A stretch of 64,000 nt of DNA from Paracoccaceae bacterium (GTDB taxonomy: Bacteria > Pseudomonadota > Alphaproteobacteria > Rhodobacterales > Rhodobacteraceae). The stretch covers positions 1 to 64,000 of the forward strand of contig WGNF01000002.1 of NCBI GenBank assembly GCA_016124615.1. The letters run 5' to 3'. The notes beneath the pieces are model-generated. The model was not told where the DNA came from. It made no database searches and was given only the letters and a program-made list of their open reading frames with translations. This document shows, piece after piece, positions 1 through 13,174 of this stretch. A program made the translations under genes and the position numbers. The first letter of the stretch is position 1, and every line of letters starts with the position of its first letter.

Positions 1-339
1 CCACAGCTGCCGACCGTTCGCAAAGCTCAGCTCTTCCGCGACCCAGCGCCCGTAGGTCGGCGAGCCCAGGCGCACATCCACCGCCACATCCAGCAGCCGC
101 CCCCGGCCGCAGCGCACCAGCTTGCCCTGCGCATGCGGCGGGCTCTGAAAATGCAGCCCGCGGATCGTGCCCGCCGTCGCCGACAGCGAGTGGTTGTCTT
201 GCACGAACTCCGGCAAATGCACCCCCGCCGCCTCCAGCGTCCGCCGGTTCCAGCTTTCCGAGAAGAACCCCCGTGCATCGCCGAAGCGACGGGGTTCGAG
301 CAGCAGAACACCGGAGATCGGGCTAAGCTCTGTGATCAT
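1..339 (-). CDS. rfbC: dTDP-4-dehydrorhamnose 3,5-epimerase, N-terminal part (runs off window edge)
   Basis: Minus-strand reading from ATG at 339: MITELSPISGVLLLEPRRFGDARGFFSESWNRRTLEAAGVHLPEFVQDNHSLSATAGTIRGLHFQSPPHAQGKLVRCGRGRLLDVAVDVR..., classic RfbC. This frame is not the listed 27..311 ORF. Confidence 0.93.
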   Translation of the reverse strand, partial: MITELSPISGVLLLEPRRFGDARGFFSESWNRRTLEAAGVHLPEFVQDNHSLSATAGTIRGLHFQSPPHAQGKLVRCGRGRLLDVAVDVRLGSPTYGRWVAEELSFANGRQLW

Positions 340-370
340 TTTGACAATCTATCCTATGTTGCAACGAAGA

Positions 371-410
371 GTTTCCGCAAGTGCAAACACGAAGTTTCTG
401 CAATTGCAAA
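371..410. promoter_or_regulatory. Tandem 17-bp direct repeats upstream of rfbC (gtttcCgcaaGtgcaaa / gtttcTgcaaTtgcaaa)
   Basis: 371..387 and 394..410 match at 15/17 positions with 23-bp periodicity; 32-71 bp upstream of the rfbC start. Confidence 0.5.
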
Positions 411-541
411 TGGCTCTAGCTGGCGTCTACGAACCTCGTTGCCATGTGAAATGGCCTATACAACTATCAACGCCGACAAACACCGCATGACGCAATACGG
501 CCTTGACGGTTGGCCTAAGTGACACAACTGCCGGAAAGACA

Positions 542-895
542 TCACTCGCGCCGGTAGGCGTCCTCATAGCGGATGATGTCATCCTCGCCCAGATAGCTGC
601 CGGTCTGCACCTCGATCAGGATCATTGGCACCTTCGCAGGGTTCTCCATCCGGTGGATGGCGCCCGGATCGATCCCAGCCTCCATAAGCTGTTCAGTCAC
701 GATGAAGCGGAAATCTGCGCCCGTAACGACCACCGGCCCGTCAAATTCCGGAGCCAGGAACCGACGGACAGAAGCCTGAAACAGGCTTTCACTGCCCACA
801 AGCGGCACAAACTGTTTGGGGTAACTTTTCCGCGATACCGGCCAAAGGCGCGTGCCTGACCCACCGGAGAGAATGACAGGAACTATCTTTGGCAT
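542..895 (-). pseudogene. manC: Internally deleted mannose-1-phosphate guanylyltransferase (N-terminal ~80 aa joined in frame to C-terminal ~37 aa)
   Basis: MPKIVPVILSGGSGTRLWPVSRKSYPKQF... (nucleotidyltransferase N-terminus) runs directly into GAIHRMENPAKVPMILIEVQTGSYLGEDDIIRYEDAYRRE (cupin C-terminus); the central region is missing. Confidence 0.85.
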
Positions 896-1964
896 ATTCG
901 GCTCTCTCAGAGGACGGCCCCTTATCGTTGCGGGGTTCGGGAGGGGCAAGCCTGATGATGCCGCCCGCGTCGCTGCATGGCAGCATTATGTGACCGCTGT
1001 GCAACCTTTGGCGGCAGTGATGCTGAAAATGCTTCCGTACGCAGCACGAGATGTTTCAGGTCGCCGACAAAGTTGTCGACAGTGAGTGCTCAGCCTGCCC
1101 CGACCACCTCGAACCGCGTACGCCATGCGGCGGGTCAGACGGTTGGGGGAGATGCAGCCGCGTTGGGGTTACTCATCGATGGTGTTGATCCCAAAGCTAA
1201 GGCAATGGGCCAGCAGTGACAACCGGCACGCGGAATCGAGCGCCGCGAAGTAGTCCCACTGTGCCGCACATCATCGTCAAGCGCAGATCGGCCTCCCGGG
1301 CCGCGTTACGCTCGTCCTCCGCCTTCGCCACCGCCTGCACTTTGAGGTCCGGCGCGTAAGTCACATGTAGGCGGAACACAGAGGGGACCTCGAGGAGGCT
1401 ACCCTCACGAGCCTGCGTGACGAAGACATCCGTCGGCGCGATCTCGACCGGATTGAAGATCAGCGGTCGCAGCTCGATGGTCTCCATCGCCGTCTCCGAC
1501 TCACCGAGCCGGTCGGCGATCCCCCAGGGTATTTGTCCTAGCCGAAATATCCTCCAGCGCCCGATACTCGACCAGTAGCTTCGTATGCGCCGCTCCTTCC
1601 TCCTCGGACATGGCGTGGGATCACCGGCCAGATGACACGGCTCGTGGCTGTAGCCGCAGGGCACATCGGTCGAGACCTCGAGATCCTCGAACACAACGGC
1701 ATCGTGACTTAGGTAGCTGCGCGCCTTAAGGATGCGCGTCGGCAGGAGGACGTCACGCATGACCTCACCTCGATGATCCGCATCTGCGTACCGCTTGCCG
1801 CGCATGCTTGGCGCGACCATGACGATATGGATGCAGTGCGCCACGACTCAGCGTTCTGGTCGGCAACCAGTTCAGCTGCGGATTGGCCCCAAATGTCGGA
1901 GCAGCTGTTGCCAACACCACAGTAGTGCCGAAGGGTCGAAAACTCCGCGAGATTGTGATGTTAT

Positions 1965-1995
1965 GAATATGCCGGGCTGAAAGCCCGGCATATTC
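1965..1995. terminator. Perfect 14-bp hairpin with GAA loop (gaatatgccgggct-gaa-agcccggcatattc)
   Basis: Direct reading of a perfect inverted repeat in a region without coherent coding. Confidence 0.5.
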
Positions 1996-2127
1996 TTCTG
2001 CTGAAGGTACGAGGGAATCGTGTTTGCAAATGCCGAGCTACGTTTGCCGAACGTTCGCCCTCTTACCCACAAAATTCAAAGCTCGATTGCCCTGGTTGAA
2101 AACAGCGGGATCAGCTCTGAGCCAAGG

Positions 2128-2562
2128 TCATGACCAGTCTTCGTGGGTTAATTCGCCGGCAGCATCCAACTCAGCCACAAGGGCCTCCAAGACATCCATG
2201 TCTACTCCCTCTCCCTCACAGTCGTCATCGTCGTCATACTCATCATCGTCATACTCGTCATCGTCATCACTGTAAAACTCAAGCGCGATGTCCCTGTATT
2301 TCTGTGCGTTTTCGGGATGGGTATCCTGAACGTCACTCGCGAGCATCCTGAGAACATCTCCGATGCTAATGATGTGGCCATCATAGCCAAATTTCTTTTT
2401 GATCTGAGGAGGGAAGATTATCTCGACATTTCTCACATAAAGCTCTCCGGTGAGCTCCATTGCCTCATAGCGTGCGGCAATTTCCTCCAACTGCTGCTTA
2501 GTTGATGCGCGCTCCTCCGTCTTGGCGTTGCCCTTGTCGTCGAGATCATTGGTATTGTGCAT
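2128..2562 (-). CDS. Hypothetical protein with Asp/Glu-rich acidic repeat tail
   Basis: MHNTNDLDDKGNAKTEERAS... with SD GGAG before this ATG; C-terminal DDDDEYDDDEYDDDDDCEGEG tract. AT-richer than flanks. Confidence 0.65.
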   Translation of the reverse strand: MHNTNDLDDKGNAKTEERASTKQQLEEIAARYEAMELTGELYVRNVEIIFPPQIKKKFGYDGHIISIGDVLRMLASDVQDTHPENAQKYRDIALEFYSDDDDEYDDDEYDDDDDCEGEGVDMDVLEALVAELDAAGELTHEDWS

Positions 2563-2771
2563 TTTGGACTCCAGTTTCATTTGTTTTATGGCGGTAGTTT
2601 ATATCATAGCATGCGGCTGCCAGATTTGCAGCGCGTTCGAAGATGATTCTATTCTCCTCTATTTATAATTTACCTTGACCATCTTTAGGCTCGTCGACGA
2701 CCTATTTACCGGTACCTCGCTGTTTGATGTATATTGCGTTGACACTGGCCGCAGCTCGCGTTCTTTTATTT

Positions 2772-3527
2772 CTATGCGTCCAGCGGCGAAACGTGGGCCA
2801 CTTCCGGCGTTGCCTTCGGGATCACCCGGACGAGCGCCTTCTTCGCCCGCCTGATCATGTCTTTTACTGCCCGTTCCGACCATGCGCGTCCGTGCGCCGT
2901 TCGTGATCCGCGCCGGTTGGCCTCTTCTGCAAGCTGCAGTGCAGATCGCGCGACGCCGTCTGCTTCCAATTCATCCTTCAGGCTGAGGATCATGTCTTCA
3001 CGGCAGCGAGCGCCGACTTGCCGTGCTACGATTGATGCGTCGCGCGCTATGAGCGTCTGCTCAGCACGGTCGGCGTCCGACATCCGAACTTTTCTTGCGC
3101 CGCGCGCCGACCAGTTCTGGATGAGCTCCGCATGGGAGATCAGGTTCGCTTTCATGTCGCCGGGCATCGTCGAGAGAGTCTTGCTATGGCGCAACGACCC
3201 TATATGCGCGCCGAAGGGCTCCAGTTCCGCCATGAGGTCGATCCGCCGGTCGAGCGCGCAAGCCCTGAAGATGCGAGCGAGATCGTCAACGAGAATGACG
3301 CCTTGGCCCGATGCATGAAGCCGTCTGAGAAATTTCGCCAGTCGAGGCAGGTCGTCAAGGCACTGGATTGCTCTCGCATAGTCCCAGTTGAACCGGTCCT
3401 CGCTCGTCGGAAATGTCGAGTATCTCGCAGCGATGTTCCGCATCTGACCGCGGGCGGCCACGTGCGTGATGACTTCGCCTCTGGTTTTCGGTTTCTTGCC
3501 GTGGGCGAGGAATATGTAGACGAGCAT
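2772..3527 (-). CDS. Resolvase/recombinase-like protein (divergent, probably plasmid- or island-borne)
   Basis: MLVYIFLAHGKK... GQGVILVDDLARIFRA...LMAELEPFGAHIGSLRHSKTL... and RSALQLAEEANRRGSRTAHGRAWSERAVKDMI (recombinase-domain-like); SD GGAGAG before ATG. Confidence 0.6.
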   Translation of the reverse strand: MLVYIFLAHGKKPKTRGEVITHVAARGQMRNIAARYSTFPTSEDRFNWDYARAIQCLDDLPRLAKFLRRLHASGQGVILVDDLARIFRACALDRRIDLMAELEPFGAHIGSLRHSKTLSTMPGDMKANLISHAELIQNWSARGARKVRMSDADRAEQTLIARDASIVARQVGARCREDMILSLKDELEADGVARSALQLAEEANRRGSRTAHGRAWSERAVKDMIRRAKKALVRVIPKATPEVAHVSPLDA

Positions 3528-3548
3528 TATCTCTCCAAACTTACATTC

Positions 3549-3564
3549 TGTGTAGCGCTACACA
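3549..3564. promoter_or_regulatory. Perfect 16-bp palindrome TGTGTAGCGCTACACA (putative operator)
   Basis: Direct reading; 22 bp upstream of the resolvase-like gene start. Confidence 0.6.
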
Positions 3565-3949
3565 AACACGTCATTTCTTACGCTGGGGCAGTCGGCCGAG
3601 ACCTGCGCGAGCTCCACGCGCCGGGTCATGCACCAGGCTTCATGGGGTGCGCACTGGCTGGCTCGGCGCAGTTTTGCGACACATGAGTGCTTCGGTCAGA
3701 GATGCCAGCCAGGCGAGCGCCCCTGTGATTAAGACAGTGAGGTTGCGACGCGGCTGGAACCCGAGGAACGGGGGAGCCGCATTCGAACCCGAACGCCCGG
3801 AACGGGTCATCACCGGATGTCACCCGAAGGCAGGAGCCTCTCGCAATACCGGAATAATGAGCCGACATCCCTTGTCTGTCCTGAAGGATGGTTCTTGCCA
3901 GCTTCTTTAAGTTTTCGCTAGCGCAGCCAACCCGGACGATATTGCGGTT

Positions 3950-4127
3950 GTAACGCTCCCCAAGCTTTCTTCTTCTTCCTCTTAAAAGATATAGATAAAC
4001 TAGGGGAGCGTTACATGTTTCGGCATTGAACCTGCTTCAGATTCCAAGATGAACCCTCCGGGATTATGTGTACGCTCCCCTATATTTTAGTATAATCTTT
4101 AAGTGTACCTGACTTGGGAGGCGTGAC
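3950..4127. repeat. Paired inverted-repeat array GTAACGCTCCCC ... GGGGAGCGTTAC with AT-/pyrimidine-rich spacers
   Basis: gtaacgctcccc 3950..3961; perfect complement ggggagcgttac 4003..4014; gtacgctcccc 4070..4080; gggaggcgtgac 4116..4127 (9/12 match). Non-coding interval. Confidence 0.7.
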
Positions 4128-4215
4128 ATTTCCTCGGCCGCGTCTTCCGGTTGCTTGACTTTCAAGTGCTTCCGGTCCTTCCGCGGCATGGCTTTGTTTC
4201 CGTCATGCCACAGAT

Positions 4216-5232
4216 CTACTCTTCCGGGATGATACCCGTGGACGACGCTGCTGCTAGCTTCGCGTTGGCGCGCGATTTTGCGGTTCTGTCTCGCCCCAGC
4301 TTTCTCTTCCGCTCGAGTATCGGGTCAGCCGATCCTGTTCTCTGCTCCACAAAGTCCAGGGATTTTGCTGCGAAAGCTCTGCATTTCGCGATGTCCGGGC
4401 AGGACGCACAAACGTCAGATGTGTCGTGATCAATACCGGTAGCGCCGAAGCACGACTGAAGACGTTGCAGCCGATGCGGCGCTTCATGATGATGGCGAGT
4501 GAGCTTGCCCGACGCGATGTCCTCTTCGGCGAATGCGACTTCGCGCGTGACGATTTCTTCACCAAACGCTCCCACGCATGCCGCGGGCGCCAACTGCGCC
4601 TTTGCGACGACCCAGTTGGCCAAAAAGGGAGAAAGGCGCGTCGAAGGATCCGAGCCGATTTCAAGCAGTTCGCGCTCAAAAGCCGTCTGTGCAGGAAGCC
4701 CCGTCACGTAGTCAACGGCATATTGTGCCATGGGCGCCATGCGCGAGAGTTCGAGTTTCTTGCGCTCAATCGTCCATTGCGCGTCGAGAATATCCGCCCA
4801 CACCGCCAACATCGGCCCCTCTTTTGGACAAAGCTGATTCGGGCGCGGTGACTCTTTCCGCTTCCGTCTCGAGTAAAATTCAAAACTGAAGCGCAGGAAG
4901 AAGTCATACGGCAACGCAGCCATGTCCGCAAACCTGCGGGCATTCCAGGCTTGAGTGAGCTGTGTGCTTTGCTTGGAAAAGCTGATCTTTCCAATCACGT
5001 TGGCAGTTTCAGCATAATTCCGATCCATATTTACCCGCGCATTGTCACGGTAAGCATTGTTGTATTCTGCCACAAAGAGGCGGGTCTTCTGCATCGGGGA
5101 AAGGAAGCGGTACGCCGGCCAGCTCGAGATCATCAACTTCTCCTCATCCATCGAATAGGTCTTCGGGATGATCTCCGCCATAGCGATCATGTCAGCGAAA
5201 CGGCACTTAGAATAGACGGCTGCGTCAAACAT
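4216..5232 (-). CDS. Hypothetical protein, ~338 aa, with C-terminal four-cysteine cluster
   Basis: ORF 4216..5280; best start MFDAAVYSKCRF at 5232 with SD AAAGGAG. C-terminal CFGATGIDHDTSDVCASCPDIAKCRAFA. Confidence 0.65.
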   Translation of the reverse strand: MFDAAVYSKCRFADMIAMAEIIPKTYSMDEEKLMISSWPAYRFLSPMQKTRLFVAEYNNAYRDNARVNMDRNYAETANVIGKISFSKQSTQLTQAWNARRFADMAALPYDFFLRFSFEFYSRRKRKESPRPNQLCPKEGPMLAVWADILDAQWTIERKKLELSRMAPMAQYAVDYVTGLPAQTAFERELLEIGSDPSTRLSPFLANWVVAKAQLAPAACVGAFGEEIVTREVAFAEEDIASGKLTRHHHEAPHRLQRLQSCFGATGIDHDTSDVCASCPDIAKCRAFAAKSLDFVEQRTGSADPILERKRKLGRDRTAKSRANAKLAAASSTGIIPEE

Positions 5233-5306
5233 GCGTTCTCCTTTGGATCGCCTGCGCGACCCTTTTCTTGATTTGTCCACATTTGGGTAGGTTTGGTCGG
5301 GAGAAC

Positions 5307-5591
5307 TTACCGCCCGAAGTCTTCTTCTTCTCCTTCATTCCACCTTCCATCTGTCCAGAAGCCCGTAAGGTGTGCGAGGTTCAGGAGACGACGGTATTTA
5401 CGACGAGCACAGGCCACGGCACTTGCCTTGGAGTGTCCACGGTGAGCGTAGTAGCCGGTGCGGATCCCCTCAATTTCCAAGAGAATTTCACGACCTCGGG
5501 TGTCGAGAAATTTCTCCTGCTCCCGGGGATTGAGCCGGAAGAAATTACGCTGACTAGGAAGCGCAGAAAGGCGAGGCAAATATCTCTTCAT
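5307..5591 (-). CDS. Small hypothetical protein
   Basis: ORF 5307..5636; likely start MKRYLPRLSALPSQRNFF at 5591 with SD GGAG; same strand as neighbours. Confidence 0.5.
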   Translation of the reverse strand: MKRYLPRLSALPSQRNFFRLNPREQEKFLDTRGREILLEIEGIRTGYYAHRGHSKASAVACARRKYRRLLNLAHLTGFWTDGRWNEGEEEDFGR

Positions 5592-5725
5592 GGTCTTGCT
5601 CCATTTTGGGTTATTCACGTGTTGCTCTCGAGGCATGCGACATCATTCCCCATTACTGAGGCTTTCTTCGAGTTTCATAGTCGAGGCTTAGAAATCAGTG
5701 CGCCGAAAGGCCTTTCGAAGACCGG

Positions 5726-6256
5726 TCAGATGCCCTTTAGTTCCCAGACGCTGAACCTCTCAGCCGTCATGCGATCGAGGTGGTCAAGCATTTTGCGCAA
5801 ATGGACGATGTCGTCGAAGGCTTTCTTTTTCGCCTGTTGATCGCCCAAATTTGACTGTTCTAACTCTTTGATCCGCGCATTAAGCTGCTCGCGCTTATAA
5901 CGATTGATGATTACGGCAATGTTTGCCGAGGCCGCTATCATGTGTTCGAGGTAGGCTTCAATACGCCCGATCGAGCCTGCGCGGCCCGTGTAGGGGCTGT
6001 AGCCGTCTGGCTCGTCGGCTTCCGGATACTCCTTCATCCAATCTGGCCCACTGTCATCGAGAAACTCGGGAGGCGTAATTCCGGCTGCATCGAGATGGAA
6101 AGTGGCGGAATCCCAGTCGCCGTTGCCTTCGGTGCGCTCGCGCCATGCAAAGAAGGGTTCGGTCAGGTAGGGGTAGCTACTGTCGGGCATTGACCTGCTT
6201 TCCCTTGCGCGACGCTCGCGCTCGGCTTTCTTTCTTTCTTTAGGGCTCATGACCAT
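5726..6256 (-). CDS. Hypothetical protein (176 aa)
   Basis: MVMSPKERKKAERERRARESRSMPDSSYPYLTEPFFAW...; SD AGAGGAG before ATG; palindromic operator just upstream. Confidence 0.65.
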   Translation of the reverse strand: MVMSPKERKKAERERRARESRSMPDSSYPYLTEPFFAWRERTEGNGDWDSATFHLDAAGITPPEFLDDSGPDWMKEYPEADEPDGYSPYTGRAGSIGRIEAYLEHMIAASANIAVIINRYKREQLNARIKELEQSNLGDQQAKKKAFDDIVHLRKMLDHLDRMTAERFSVWELKGI

Positions 6257-6270
6257 TTGCTTGCTCCTCT

Positions 6271-6306
6271 ATCGTGACCGTGACTGACATATGTCACGGT
6301 CACGAT
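6271..6306. promoter_or_regulatory. Nested palindromic operator: ATCGTGACCGTGA-(10)-TCACGGTCACGAT enclosing TGACATATGTCA
   Basis: 13-bp perfect arms 6271..6283 and 6294..6306; inner perfect 12-bp palindrome 6285..6296; 15 bp from the start of the 5726..6256 gene. Confidence 0.75.
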
Positions 6307-7431
6307 TTGAAGTCAAGCACGTTGAGTGCGAAATTTTTCCACCCCACCGAAACGACCCCAAAACTGCTGTGGCCGTAAGCATCCAGCATTTCTCCCCTGC
6401 CGGGTTTCGAAGCTGATCGACGTCACATTAGTCGATCGCCGGCTTCAGGATCGTGCGCCCGCGCAACTGGTCTTGGGTGCTCTTGCGCCAACGCTTCGCG
6501 CAAGACAGGCAGACTTGCGGCAGCCCGAAGATCACTTGTGGCAGCGGGATACCTGCGGTCGACGCCACGGTGGAGTCTTCGGGGTTCCCTCTCTCCTTGC
6601 ACGATAGCGGTCGCGGCAATGAGGATGACTCCCTCCCCGACATGTCGATTCCGGGTGCCGCCGACGCACTTCGTGCCGTCTCTGGCGCCAGCCTTCACCA
6701 GACTCACTGAGAGCGGCCTTGGGCGGCGATCTCGACTAGGTACGCCCAAGACCTGTGCCATGGCCGAGGTGCTCGCCAGTGACTCAGCCAGTGAGTCTGG
6801 CGATGCTCCAAAGAATTGGCAGCCGGTGCCGACGTTCAGGTCGTCTCGCCGGGTTTCGGTGGTGTGCTGCTGCCCCTTGACCACAAGCAGGCGTTCGACC
6901 TTTCATGCCCAGGGATTTCCGGCATGCAGGTGCCCATGATCACGCTGCCGCCCTCGAGCCCACCGACCGGACCTGCGGCACAGGCACCCGTCCGCATGTG
7001 ATGCATTCCGCCCGGCAACGCCGTACCGGAAGCGGCGCAGGTGCCGTTCGGTGTGGCGGGCCAATGACCCGCGCGTTCGGCTCCTCCACCCAACTATTCG
7101 CTGACCATCCCATCGCCCCGCAACGATTGTCCCGGCCGCTCCCCTTGCACCTGACGGATCATCCCGAGGCGTCGACGTTCGGTCTCGTTTGCGCAGCATC
7201 CCCGACGCCAGAACAGCACCAGGACTCGCTGGGGTGGCCGCTGAGCGCGATCCTCTCCATTCTGCGCATCGTTCGTGCTCGCGAACGGGGACGCGTCTGT
7301 AGCCCAAAACCCTGATGAAATACTTTCGCTGGTCTTGAAATGTGCCGCTGTCTGGTGCGGAACCATGGGCCCTGCCGACCCGGACGCCCAAGCGCAAATC
7401 GACGAAAAAGTCCAAAACGCCGATTTTCTGT

Positions 7432-7563
7432 CAACATAAGGTAAACTTTATGCAACATAAGGGAACGTTTGTGGTCCTGAAGTTGCCTGGAAGTGGCGCT
7501 TCGGTCTCATTTTAGGGGCCAGAATGTTACGTTTGGTTTCCTGAATGTTACCGTTGGCTGCAG
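7432..7563. repeat. Two tandem 21-bp repeat pairs in opposite orientation
   Basis: caacataaggtaaactttatg 7432..7452 and caacataagggaacgtttgtg 7453..7473; gaatgttacgtttggtttcct 7522..7542 and gaatgttaccgttggctgcag 7543..7563. The second pair read on the minus strand shares an AACAT...GG motif with the first. Confidence 0.6.
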
Positions 7564-8075
7564 GGGTGCAACATTATGCAACATCCTTTAGGTTGTAGAT
7601 GCATCGCTTGGGCCTGTGCCAACTAGCAATGCCCTTGCTGAGCGACGTCCAGAACGGCCAACTCGGTCCCCCGGCCCGGAGGTTTGGATGCCAGGAAGTC
7701 GGTGGCGCCAGAAGGCATCCCCATCGCGTCGACGCGAAAAACCTAGGACTTCGCTTGCCCCCTGGCACATGGGGTGAGGCTGTCGATTCCAGCGCCTATC
7801 GCCGACGACGTCGTGCGAGGCCCGGGATCCTCCGAGGCTCGCCGGAAACGTCAGCCGCACCTCGTTGCCGTTCCTGCGGGGGGCTGTCGCACCGCCCCGG
7901 CTCGCGTCAGCCTGACCGCATGCGGAGTTCGCCAGGTCAACTGGCCGCTCGAGACCTGGTCATCTCTCGGTGAACGGCCACTTTGTCATCGTGCCGTCAG
8001 CCGCGACGCCCTAGAAGGCAGGCGAATTCGCACCGGGTGCAGCCCCGGAGTGTGCAGATAACGGAACGATGCCAG

Positions 8076-9572
8076 ATGGTGAACGGATCAAGGGTTCTGG
8101 CGTGGACGTCGTCGGCGCGGCGGGTATCAGGGGTGCGCCGATCGCTCCGGAGCCGCCTTCTGCTTGCCCTGCCGTTCATCTGCCTTCTCCTCGGCGGATC
8201 GATCGCGGTGTATGATGCGTGGCTTGCCCCCACGCTCAATTTCCTGACGCTGGATCGCGTGGCCCTGCCCGCGACGGGTGTCAAAGGCGTCGTCTTCCTG
8301 TTTTCCGACGCACCCGGCTGGGGCCCGCGCGAGGCCGAGGTCAGCGCAAGGCTCAGGGAGGCGGGTCTGGCCGTGGTCGGGATCGACACGCCCACCTATC
8401 TCAGGGCGATGTCGCGCCACCCGGATCGGTGCGGCTACATGGTCTCGGACCTCGAAAGCGTCGCGCAAAGCCTGCAGCGGTCGGCAGGCTCGCAGACCTA
8501 CGCGGCCCCGATCGTGGCCGGGTTCGGCCTTGGCGGGGGCCTCGCCCTCGACATGGTCGACCAGACGCCGGAAGCGACGATCGGCGGCACCGTCGTCATG
8601 GACCCGGCCTCGGCTGTTCCGCTCAAGGTCGAGCTTTGCACCCCGTCCGGCTATCTCACGACGTCGGCGGGCGAGATCTATGCCCTGCATGGCGGCCACG
8701 AGCCGGACCCCGTTTCGGTGCTGCTCAGCCCCGGTGCAACGGATGACACTCGGGACAGGGTCGGGTCGATGTCCGCGGCCTCCGCGGACGTGAAGGTGAT
8801 CGCGCGCGACGCGCCGACGGCCGACAGCCTTTCCGAAGCCGTCATGACGATGTCGGCGGCAGCCACGGTTTCCCGCAAGGCGCTGCCGATCAAGGTGCTG
8901 AGCGCCGTGCCGCGGCGCGATGCGATGGCCGTGATCCTGTCGGGGGATGGCGGCTGGCGCGACATCGATTCCTCGATCGCCAGGCTCATGCAGGCCGATG
9001 GCGTTCCGGTCGTCGGTGTGGACTCGCTGCGCTATTTCTGGAGCCGCCGGACACCCGCGGAAACCGCCAGGGATCTGTCGGGCGTCATCGAGAAGTATCG
9101 CGCGGCGTGGAACGTGAAGAACGTCCTGCTGATCGGCTATTCCTTCGGGGCCGACGTCCTTCCCGCCACCTACGCCGCCCTGCCCGAGGCGACGCGTCGC
9201 CATATCCGCCTGGTGGGCCTGCTCGGGTTTTCGAAGTTGGCCGATTGGCAGATCACGGTCGCCGGCTGGTTCGGCTCGCACGGGTCCGCGGCGGCGGCGG
9301 CGCTTCCGATCCCCGCAGCCCTGCCGCCGGGAAAGATCCTGTGCGTGCTCGGCCGAGAAGAACCGGACTCGGCATGCCACGACATCGTGGCCCTGGGCGC
9401 CGAAACGCTGGTGACGAAGGGGGGGCACCACTTCGGCGGCGACTACCCGCAGATCGAACGCGCCCTGCTGGCAGCCTACGATGCGAGACGGGCGAAGCGG
9501 GACAGCGTCGCGGCCCTTACGCCGTCGCCCGGCGCGCCGAACACCGCAGCCGAGCAGCACATGACGCAGTGA
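8076..9572 (+). CDS. AcvB/VirJ-family two-lobed alpha/beta hydrolase, exported
   Basis: ORF 7983..9572, likely start MVNGSRVLAW. N-terminal signal/TM; GFGLGG in first lobe; GYSFGADVLP nucleophile elbow and GGHHFGGDY in second lobe, as in VirJ domains. Confidence 0.8.
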   Translation: MVNGSRVLAWTSSARRVSGVRRSLRSRLLLALPFICLLLGGSIAVYDAWLAPTLNFLTLDRVALPATGVKGVVFLFSDAPGWGPREAEVSARLREAGLAVVGIDTPTYLRAMSRHPDRCGYMVSDLESVAQSLQRSAGSQTYAAPIVAGFGLGGGLALDMVDQTPEATIGGTVVMDPASAVPLKVELCTPSGYLTTSAGEIYALHGGHEPDPVSVLLSPGATDDTRDRVGSMSAASADVKVIARDAPTADSLSEAVMTMSAAATVSRKALPIKVLSAVPRRDAMAVILSGDGGWRDIDSSIARLMQADGVPVVGVDSLRYFWSRRTPAETARDLSGVIEKYRAAWNVKNVLLIGYSFGADVLPATYAALPEATRRHIRLVGLLGFSKLADWQITVAGWFGSHGSAAAAALPIPAALPPGKILCVLGREEPDSACHDIVALGAETLVTKGGHHFGGDYPQIERALLAAYDARRAKRDSVAALTPSPGAPNTAAEQHMTQ

Positions 9573-10606: not shown

Positions 10607-10683
10607 TGGTCGGAGTGAGAGGATTCGAACCTCCGACCCCCTGCTCCCGAAGCAGGTGCGCTACCAGACTGCGCTACACTCCG
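10607..10683 (-). tRNA. tRNA-Pro (anticodon CGG), CCA encoded
   Basis: Minus strand CGGAGTGTAGCGCAGTCTGGTAGCGCACCTGCTTCGGGAGCAGGGGGTCGGAGGTTCGAATCCTCTCACTCCGACCA: cloverleaf arms, TTCGAATC T-loop, anticodon loop TTCGGGA. Confidence 0.95.
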
Positions 10684-12067: not shown

Positions 12068-13174
12068 TTACAAGCTGGCGTCAAGCGCCGCGAGGATCGC
12101 GTCGCCCATGCCGGTGGTGCTGACGGGCGCGCCGCCCTCGGGGCCCATCAGGTCGGCGGTGCGGGCGCCATCGGCCAGCACCTTTTCCACCGCCGCCTCA
12201 AGTCGCGCGGCCTCGTCGCCCAGCCCGAAGGAATAGCGCAGCGCCATCGCGAACGACAGGATGCAGGCGATCGGGTTGGCCTTGCCCTGCCCGGCGATAT
12301 CGGGGGCCGAGCCATGCACCGGCTCATAAAGCGCCTTGGGCCGACCGTTTGCCATCGGCGCGCCGAGGCTGGCCGAGGGCAACATGCCAAGGCTGCCGGT
12401 CAGCATCGCGGCGCAATCCGACAGAATGTCGCCGAACAGGTTGTCGGTCACGATCACGTCGAACTGCTTGGGCCAGCGCACCAACTGCATCGCGCCGTTG
12501 TCGGCATACATGTGGCTGAGCGCGACATCGGGGTATTCCTCGTCGCGCACCTTCTGCACGACCTCGCGCCAGAGCACGCCCGATTCCATCACGTTGGCCT
12601 TCTCCATCGAGCAGACCTTGTTGTGCCGCTTGCGCGCCAGTTCGAAGGCCGAGCGCGCCACGCGGGCAATCTCGGATTCGGTGTAGCGCTGGGTGTTGAT
12701 GCCGACCCGTTCGTTGCCTTCGGTGAAGATGCCGCGCGGCTCGCCGAAATAGACGCCCGAGGTCAGTTCCCGCACGATCATGATGTCGAGCCCGGCCACC
12801 ACGTCCTTCTTCAGCGACGAGAAGTCCGCCAGCGCGTCGAAGCACTGCGCCGGGCGCAGGTTGGCGAACAGGTCCATTTCCTTGCGCAGCCGCAGCAGCC
12901 CGCGTTCGGGCTTCAGCGCGAACGGCAGGTTGTCGTATTTCGGCCCGCCAACGGCGCCCAGCAGCACCGCATCGACCTCTTGCGCCTTGGCCATGGTGTC
13001 GTCGCTCAGCGGGGTGCCATAGGCGTCGTAGGCGCAGCCGCCCACCAGCCCCTCGGACACGTCAAAGACGATCCCCCGCTTCGCACCCAGCCAGTCGATG
13101 ATGCGGCGCACCTCGGCCATGACTTCGGGGCCGATGCCGTCGCCGGGAAGGATCAGAAGGGAAGGATTGCTCAT
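12068..13174 (-). CDS. leuB: 3-isopropylmalate dehydrogenase
   Basis: [104 protein letters not shown]. Confidence 0.97.

Follow-up and report, generated by a model that had tools for sequence, protein, structure and literature searches.

A likely three-gene operon with a conserved repeat array in Rhodobacterales: a probable replication-initiation cassette of integrative mobile elements

Introduction

Initiation of the lambda O/P type combines an iteron-binding initiator with a helicase loader. It is the O protein of lambda that binds the iterons (PMC7466680). In a review of SCC modules, Cch is described as containing DUF927 and as related to the Rep helicase of SaPIbov1, and SaPI origins are described as iterons located just downstream of rep (PMC7581432). 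Closest by homology to the locus reported here is phrog_2500, a protein family of unknown function represented, e.g., by SSU5_038 of Salmonella phage SSU5 and B1VFA_116 of Rhizobium phage B1VFA; a literature search found no paper naming this family.

We analysed a 64-kb window at the start of a contig of 438 kb from a Rhodobacterales genome. Here, a sequence-only reading had pointed out three co-oriented genes of 176, ~ 94 and ~ 338 aa (hereafter P1, P2 and P3) behind a nested palindrome, and proposed them as a candidate undescribed system. The proteins are indeed conserved, co-inherited and unrecognised, but the system is best read as replication initiation and not as defence or maintenance. 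We consider it reasonably probable that the operon and a repeat array 3' of P3 together serve an integrative mobile element as its replication-initiation cassette. The grounds are the homology of P3 to a phage family encoded next to DnaB, the conserved origin-like array that accompanies P3, and the position of P1 at other loci ahead of genes for DUF927 helicases.

The locus resembles SaPI Rep and SCC Cch in its arrangement, i.e., small genes, a putative initiator, short repeats directly downstream and an integrative element, and in six loci a gene of the P1 family is followed by a DUF927 gene as the next replication gene. However, SaPI Rep and SCC Cch are DUF927 or Primase_Cterm helicases, whereas P3 has neither DUF927 nor another helicase domain; its repeats are 14-mers in inverted pairs instead of the short direct repeats of the SaPI type, and those P3 loci that have a helicase encode it as an SF1 protein of its own. 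Lambda O/P would be alike only in the way of working, with four candidate binding sites, an AT-rich stretch and a dedicated helicase-recruiting protein. No sequence relation to lambda O/P was found, P3 would join both roles in one protein, and the P3 array lies outside coding sequence.

Results and discussion

P1 (5726–6256; 176 aa) is the first gene and belongs to a family of alphaproteobacterial mobile elements. P2 (5307–5591) encodes 94 aa from the ATG at 5591, with GGAG upstream, or 109 aa if it starts at 5636, and P3 (4216–5232) encodes 338 aa from the ATG at 5232, with AGGAG upstream, or 354 aa if the GTG at 5280 is used. All are intact ORFs on the minus strand, each with a plausible Shine-Dalgarno site, which confirms the genes and starts first proposed. 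The palindrome upstream of P1 is likewise real and contains the offset 12-bp palindrome that had been noticed (TGACATATGTCA, 6285–6296), but its arms, given earlier as 13 bp, are 14 bp long (ATCGTGACCGTGAC N8 GTCACGGTCACGAT; 6271–6284 and 6293–6306, 100% complementary with an 8-bp spacer). It scores 14, a value that 0 of 200 dinucleotide shuffles reached, their mean being 5.6. This strandless operator (6271–6306) overlaps a promoter-like element of P1 read from the sequence (6288–6316, minus strand), with TTGACT at 6311–6316, a 17-bp spacer and CATATG at 6288–6293, and P1, P2 and P3 are likely to form an operon behind this palindrome-overlapped promoter.

Profile searches of P1–P3 gave no Pfam or NCBIfam family match, including none to Rep domains (Rep_3 and others), DUF927 or Primase_Cterm/D5-type helicases, and no Rep, HTH or ATPase domain could be recognised in P3. 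The initial impression that no product belongs to a recognised family therefore holds for Pfam and NCBIfam, but P3 matches two PHROGs, both of unknown function. A match to well-known plasmid replication families had been named as evidence that would speak against a new system; no named Rep family matches. P2 is predicted to be a helical-hairpin protein with a conserved WTDGRW motif (AlphaFold pLDDT 73), and none of the 69 PDB matches of its model was significant. The P3 model was poor (pLDDT 58), too weak for a fold search, and gave no meaningful PDB match.

P3 is rare: it was found in 1 of 298 genomes of a family sample, the window's own, and in 2 of 296 genomes of a second sample, of the order, and a pattern search of the GTDB collection returned four loci; protein patterns detected no P3 relative in viral contigs. 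The orthologues are 30–35% identical to the window copy. In Rhodobacteraceae bacterium 63075 (L019/L029), P1, P2 and P3 occur in the same order as in the window, followed by the array, an SF1 helicase gene and then a tyrosine integrase gene on the opposite strand. Ruegeria conchae and Ruegeria sp. HKCCD7303 carry an integrase gene (opposite strand), P2, P3, array and SF1 helicase, Phaeobacter sp. QD34_24 carries P2, P3 and array up to the contig end, and Puniceibacterium confluentis carries P3, array and SF1 helicase, with P2 not found. P2 lies directly 5' of P3 in four loci, and the Ruegeria P2 is 192 aa long. Since the three genes co-occur in other genomes, a check that the sequence-only reading had called for, they constitute a heritable set, in which P2-P3 is the tight pair and P1 is shared with other operons.

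The array lies at 3949–4128, just outside the region first described as the operon (4216–6306). It is composed of 14-mers (consensus TGTAAYGCYCCCCT) in inverted copies with AT-rich cores, and such copies are found just 3' of P3 in five of five loci. In the window, site F1 (4116–4128, minus strand; TGTCACGCCTCCC in P3 orientation) is the most diverged copy, R1 (4067–4081, plus strand; TGTGTACGCTCCCCT) is one base shorter than the consensus, F2 (4002–4015, minus strand; TGTAACGCTCCCCT) is a perfect consensus and R2 (3949–3961, plus strand) reads TGTAACGCTCCCC. The strandless core between F2 and R2 (3963–4001; 39 bp, 28% GC) is a candidate DNA-unwinding element. The site order is forward-reverse-forward-reverse in the window, L029 and L030; L031 has the first three sites and then its contig ends, and L032 has three sites. 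Forward-reverse cores span 39–51 bp where measured (23–43% GC), and the reverse-forward gap is short, GC-richer and contains TCCGGA in L029–L032. The first site of L030, like that of L031, shares bases with the stop codon of P3.

Of 395 Rhodobacterales genomes, 3 contain the exact dyad, in each case at a P3 locus, with 0 occurrences of a reversed-pattern control; a search of viral contigs for the exact dyad found none. Sites are more alike within a locus than between loci (TGTCAC in three of three sites in L032, TGTAAT in most L030 sites), a behaviour seen in iterons and one that would be expected of binding sites evolving with their protein. As L032 has array and P3 with no P2, and the window has array and P3 with no helicase, P3 is the sole protein common to all arrays. 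The array thus goes with P3, and by elimination P3 is its likeliest binder. A reading of the array as RNA was set aside: each site individually keeps the DNA consensus, even where the arms pair poorly (F1/R1 of L030), which suits protein binding sites.

P3 itself consists of a phrog_2500-like N-terminal domain (residues ~ 18–194) and a C-terminal Cys4 domain. Residues 16–138 match phrog_2500 (hmmscan, E 2.8e-19), all five of the orthologues match as well, and profile-profile alignment of residues 18–194 with five phage or phage-plasmid members (hhalign) gave 99.5% with E 3.7e-22; on this profile evidence the P3 N-terminus is homologous to the family. By tblastn, relatives were found in 859 plasmid and 14 phage records, many of them phage-plasmids of ~ 105–120 kb. 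The phrog_2500 gene is directly followed by that of a DnaB_C protein and then by a primase gene in SSU5, pJN2-26, B1VFA and pLM21S1, and the order on the Acinetobacter plasmid pV_JAB144 is repM, phrog_2500 gene, a 143-aa gene and DnaB_C. That the gene is kept beside DnaB across these lineages suggests a helicase-associated role. The P3 gene is alike in lying just upstream of a helicase gene, which encodes DnaB in the phages and an SF1 protein in the P3 relatives. The phages, however, have DnaB and primase as neighbours, whereas an SF1 helicase stands beside P3 in three relatives and none does in the window; P3 is also ~ 100 residues longer and has the Cys4 domain. Since the phage relatives lack that domain, and their loci lack the array, origin binding would not be a property of the wider phrog_2500 family.

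The C-x13-C-x2-C-x5-C cluster pointed out earlier is present as C261, C275, C278 and C284 (338-aa numbering), and all four residues are invariant in five orthologues, a count that rests on few sequences, namely the five P3 loci. As had been suggested, it could be a Zn or Fe-S site. Residues 260–336 of the window copy, and of no other, match phrog_3616 (E 2.5e-4), and a phage search with the C-terminal part of the L031 P3, an approximate query with a few extra leading letters, found no match.

An SF1 helicase gene follows P3 in the three relatives with enough flank. The closest PDB entries to its product are RecD2 (E 1.9e-20) and T4 Dda (E 7.4e-10); these SF1B proteins resemble the helicase 3' of the array in the relatives, but no such helicase is encoded in the window. 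To our knowledge, RecD2- and Dda-like SF1B proteins do not usually serve as replicative helicases. In L029, L030 and L032, P3 and the start of the helicase gene flank the array, whose position would also suit a regulatory region through which P3, as a transcription regulator with its Cys4 domain acting in DNA binding or as a redox switch, controls the downstream helicase via four operator sites. The cysteine spacing, C-x2-C-x5-C with a further upstream Cys, resembles that of WhiB-like Fe-S proteins, and WhiB1 is the third PDB match of the P3 C-terminal profile, but with E 5.6 this match is not significant and the Pfam WhiB profile does not match P3. Moreover, the array is retained in the window where no helicase follows within the region, the AT-rich cores between inverted sites are origin-like, and the phage relatives of P3 adjoin DnaB and primase. 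We regard such a regulatory role as improbable.

Relatives of P1, with 27–40% identity, were detected in 9 of the 298 genomes of the family sample, the window's own included, and also on Cereibacter and Sinorhizobium plasmids. The palindrome upstream of P1 beats 97% of dinucleotide shuffles in 11 of 14 loci. Most of these palindromes have the form GTGA-N-GTGA and overlie a TTGAC promoter, with TTGAC at the equivalent position upstream of most P1 relatives. Because palindromes precede most P1 relatives, the operator, judged by these comparisons, travels with the P1 family; although real, it is not part of the three-gene system to which it had been assigned, nor of P2-P3. This fits autoregulation, and P1 is a probable autoregulator. 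In three loci P1 is near ORFs that resemble, as judged by eye, tail tape-measure genes.

Just downstream of four of the five P1-linked DUF927 genes checked there are 9-bp direct repeats (L003, 14407–14500; L020, 12335–12470; L021, 9279–9350; L028, ~ 13000–13160), which are candidate origins of alphaproteobacterial elements. These iterons occupy the same place as the P3 array and as the iterons of SaPIs (PMC7581432), i.e., downstream of the gene. P1-DUF927-iterons and P1-P2-P3-array are therefore parallel cassettes, and this parallel is the best argument that P2-P3 replace a replication initiator.

As uncharacterised genes within a genomic island, P1–P3 might instead constitute an undescribed three-gene anti-phage defence or toxin-antitoxin system, given that helicases occur in defence systems and that P1 relatives stand beside VapBC on Cereibacter plasmids. 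PADLOC models gave a single weak match among P1–P3, of the helical part of P1 to PglX (E 0.0055), and a PglX identity was discounted as this is a weak coiled-coil match. No toxin, nuclease or NTPase domain is present, the conserved array is origin-like and the phrog_2500 relatives are genes of phage replication neighbourhoods, which leaves a defence or toxin-antitoxin role very unlikely.

The module is linked to mobile elements, as its appearance had suggested, with integrases adjoining it in relatives. The Ruegeria module lies at the 3' end of tRNA-Pro(CGG); the 25 other Ruegeria genomes searched keep the flanking gene, and in nearly all of them the aligned flank breaks off close to the end of the tRNA. 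The Ruegeria element is therefore integrated there, the 3' end of tRNA-Pro being where homology to these sister genomes is lost. The window has the same isoacceptor, tRNA-Pro(CGG), at 10607–10683 on the minus strand, its 3' end pointing towards the module across 4.3 kb, and a search of the window found no duplicated tRNA-Pro end and no integrase; integration of the window element at this site is no more than a possibility.

Integrases adjoining the module in L029 and Ruegeria, the tRNA-Pro integration in Ruegeria and the resolvase-like gene after the array in the window would all accord with the array being a recombination or excision site (arm-type or resolution), with P2 and P3 as directionality or accessory factors for the recombinase of the element. 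However, the integrases of L029 and Ruegeria are different proteins (339 and 442 aa) that did not match one another, the ORFs seen in the 10 kb to each side of the Puniceibacterium module include no integrase, and it is P3, not the recombinases, that the array accompanies, for the loci of the resolvase-like relatives (L026, L057 and L058) have no array. We think a recombination site quite unlikely.

The resolvase-like protein (2772–3527, minus strand) has no PF00239 match and reads YIFLAHG where active relatives have Y-x-R-V-S-T. Its relatives in three other genomes (L026, L057 and L058) adjoin active serine or tyrosine recombinase genes, which suggests that it is a recombinase paralogue conserved in an inactive form, with an accessory role. 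A search of plasmids for this protein gave no match. The sequence-only reading had joined this gene and the array to the operon in one module; the array is conserved with P3, but the resolvase-like gene was not found with P2-P3 at other loci, and a relative is near P1 in one locus (L026). A perfect 16-bp palindrome (TGTGTAGCGCTACACA, 3550–3565) just upstream is probably its operator.

The replication-initiation reading draws on gene order, conservation and P3-specificity of the array, phrog_2500 homology, helicase synteny and the P1 operator, from which we infer all binding and replication. In the proposed mechanism, P1 would be made first and repress its own promoter through the palindrome, keeping the operon low, and relief of this repression would allow P2 and P3 to be made. 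P3 would then bind the paired inverted 14-mers just 3' of its own gene with part of the protein and bend or open the AT-rich cores, its phrog_2500-like N-terminal domain would assist in positioning a helicase on this AT-rich DNA once it is open, and P2 would be a partner protein. The helicase would be the SF1 protein encoded right after the array in the relatives; for the window copy it would have to be encoded elsewhere and supplied in trans, or the element has decayed.

No helicase, primase or integrase gene is adjacent to the module in the window, where it sits at the contig end amid gene remnants, and window positions 1–8000 have little match in six same-genus genomes. With no adjacent helicase, one array site diverged and another one base short, the window copy may be incomplete, perhaps dead. 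A decayed remnant with no present function in this strain would account for the missing helicase and integrase, the diverged F1 and the location at a contig end, where the neighbours are a truncated NTP_transferase/MannoseP_isomerase fusion and a second rfbC copy, but none of the three ORFs is disrupted, each has a plausible Shine-Dalgarno site, and the four cysteines and the operator are kept; we judge decay rather unlikely, if less so than the other alternatives.

If the replication-initiation reading is right, small Rhodobacterales integrative elements swap whole initiation systems behind the same P1 regulator, the alternatives being a DUF927 helicase plus 9-bp iterons and P2-P3 plus 14-mer dyads. 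It would also provide a function for a family matching 859 plasmid and 14 phage records, many of them 105–120 kb phage-plasmids. A bolder proposal, which we put forward tentatively and with more doubt than confidence, is that P3 is the first recognised of a new initiator class, in which a phrog_2500 domain recruits the helicase and a metal-binding Cys4 domain joined to it recognises 14-mers arranged as inverted pairs with AT-rich cores, and, by extension, that phrog_2500 is an unrecognised helicase-loader family in most 105–120 kb phage-plasmids of enterobacteria and Acinetobacter.

Several other features of the window were recorded. At the contig start, an rfbC-like gene (1–314) is 98% identical to a second copy in the genome (C2:33240–33553), and it is followed by an NTP_transferase/MannoseP_isomerase ORF (542–949) with its middle deleted, leaving a truncated fusion. 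A 150-aa protein of no clear family (2128–2580, minus strand) has a C-terminal acidic run from a GAT/GAC-type microsatellite (2216–2269). Between the module and tRNA-Pro, a VirJ/AcvB-like protein (PF06057, E 1.6e-74) is encoded on the plus strand at 7983–9572.
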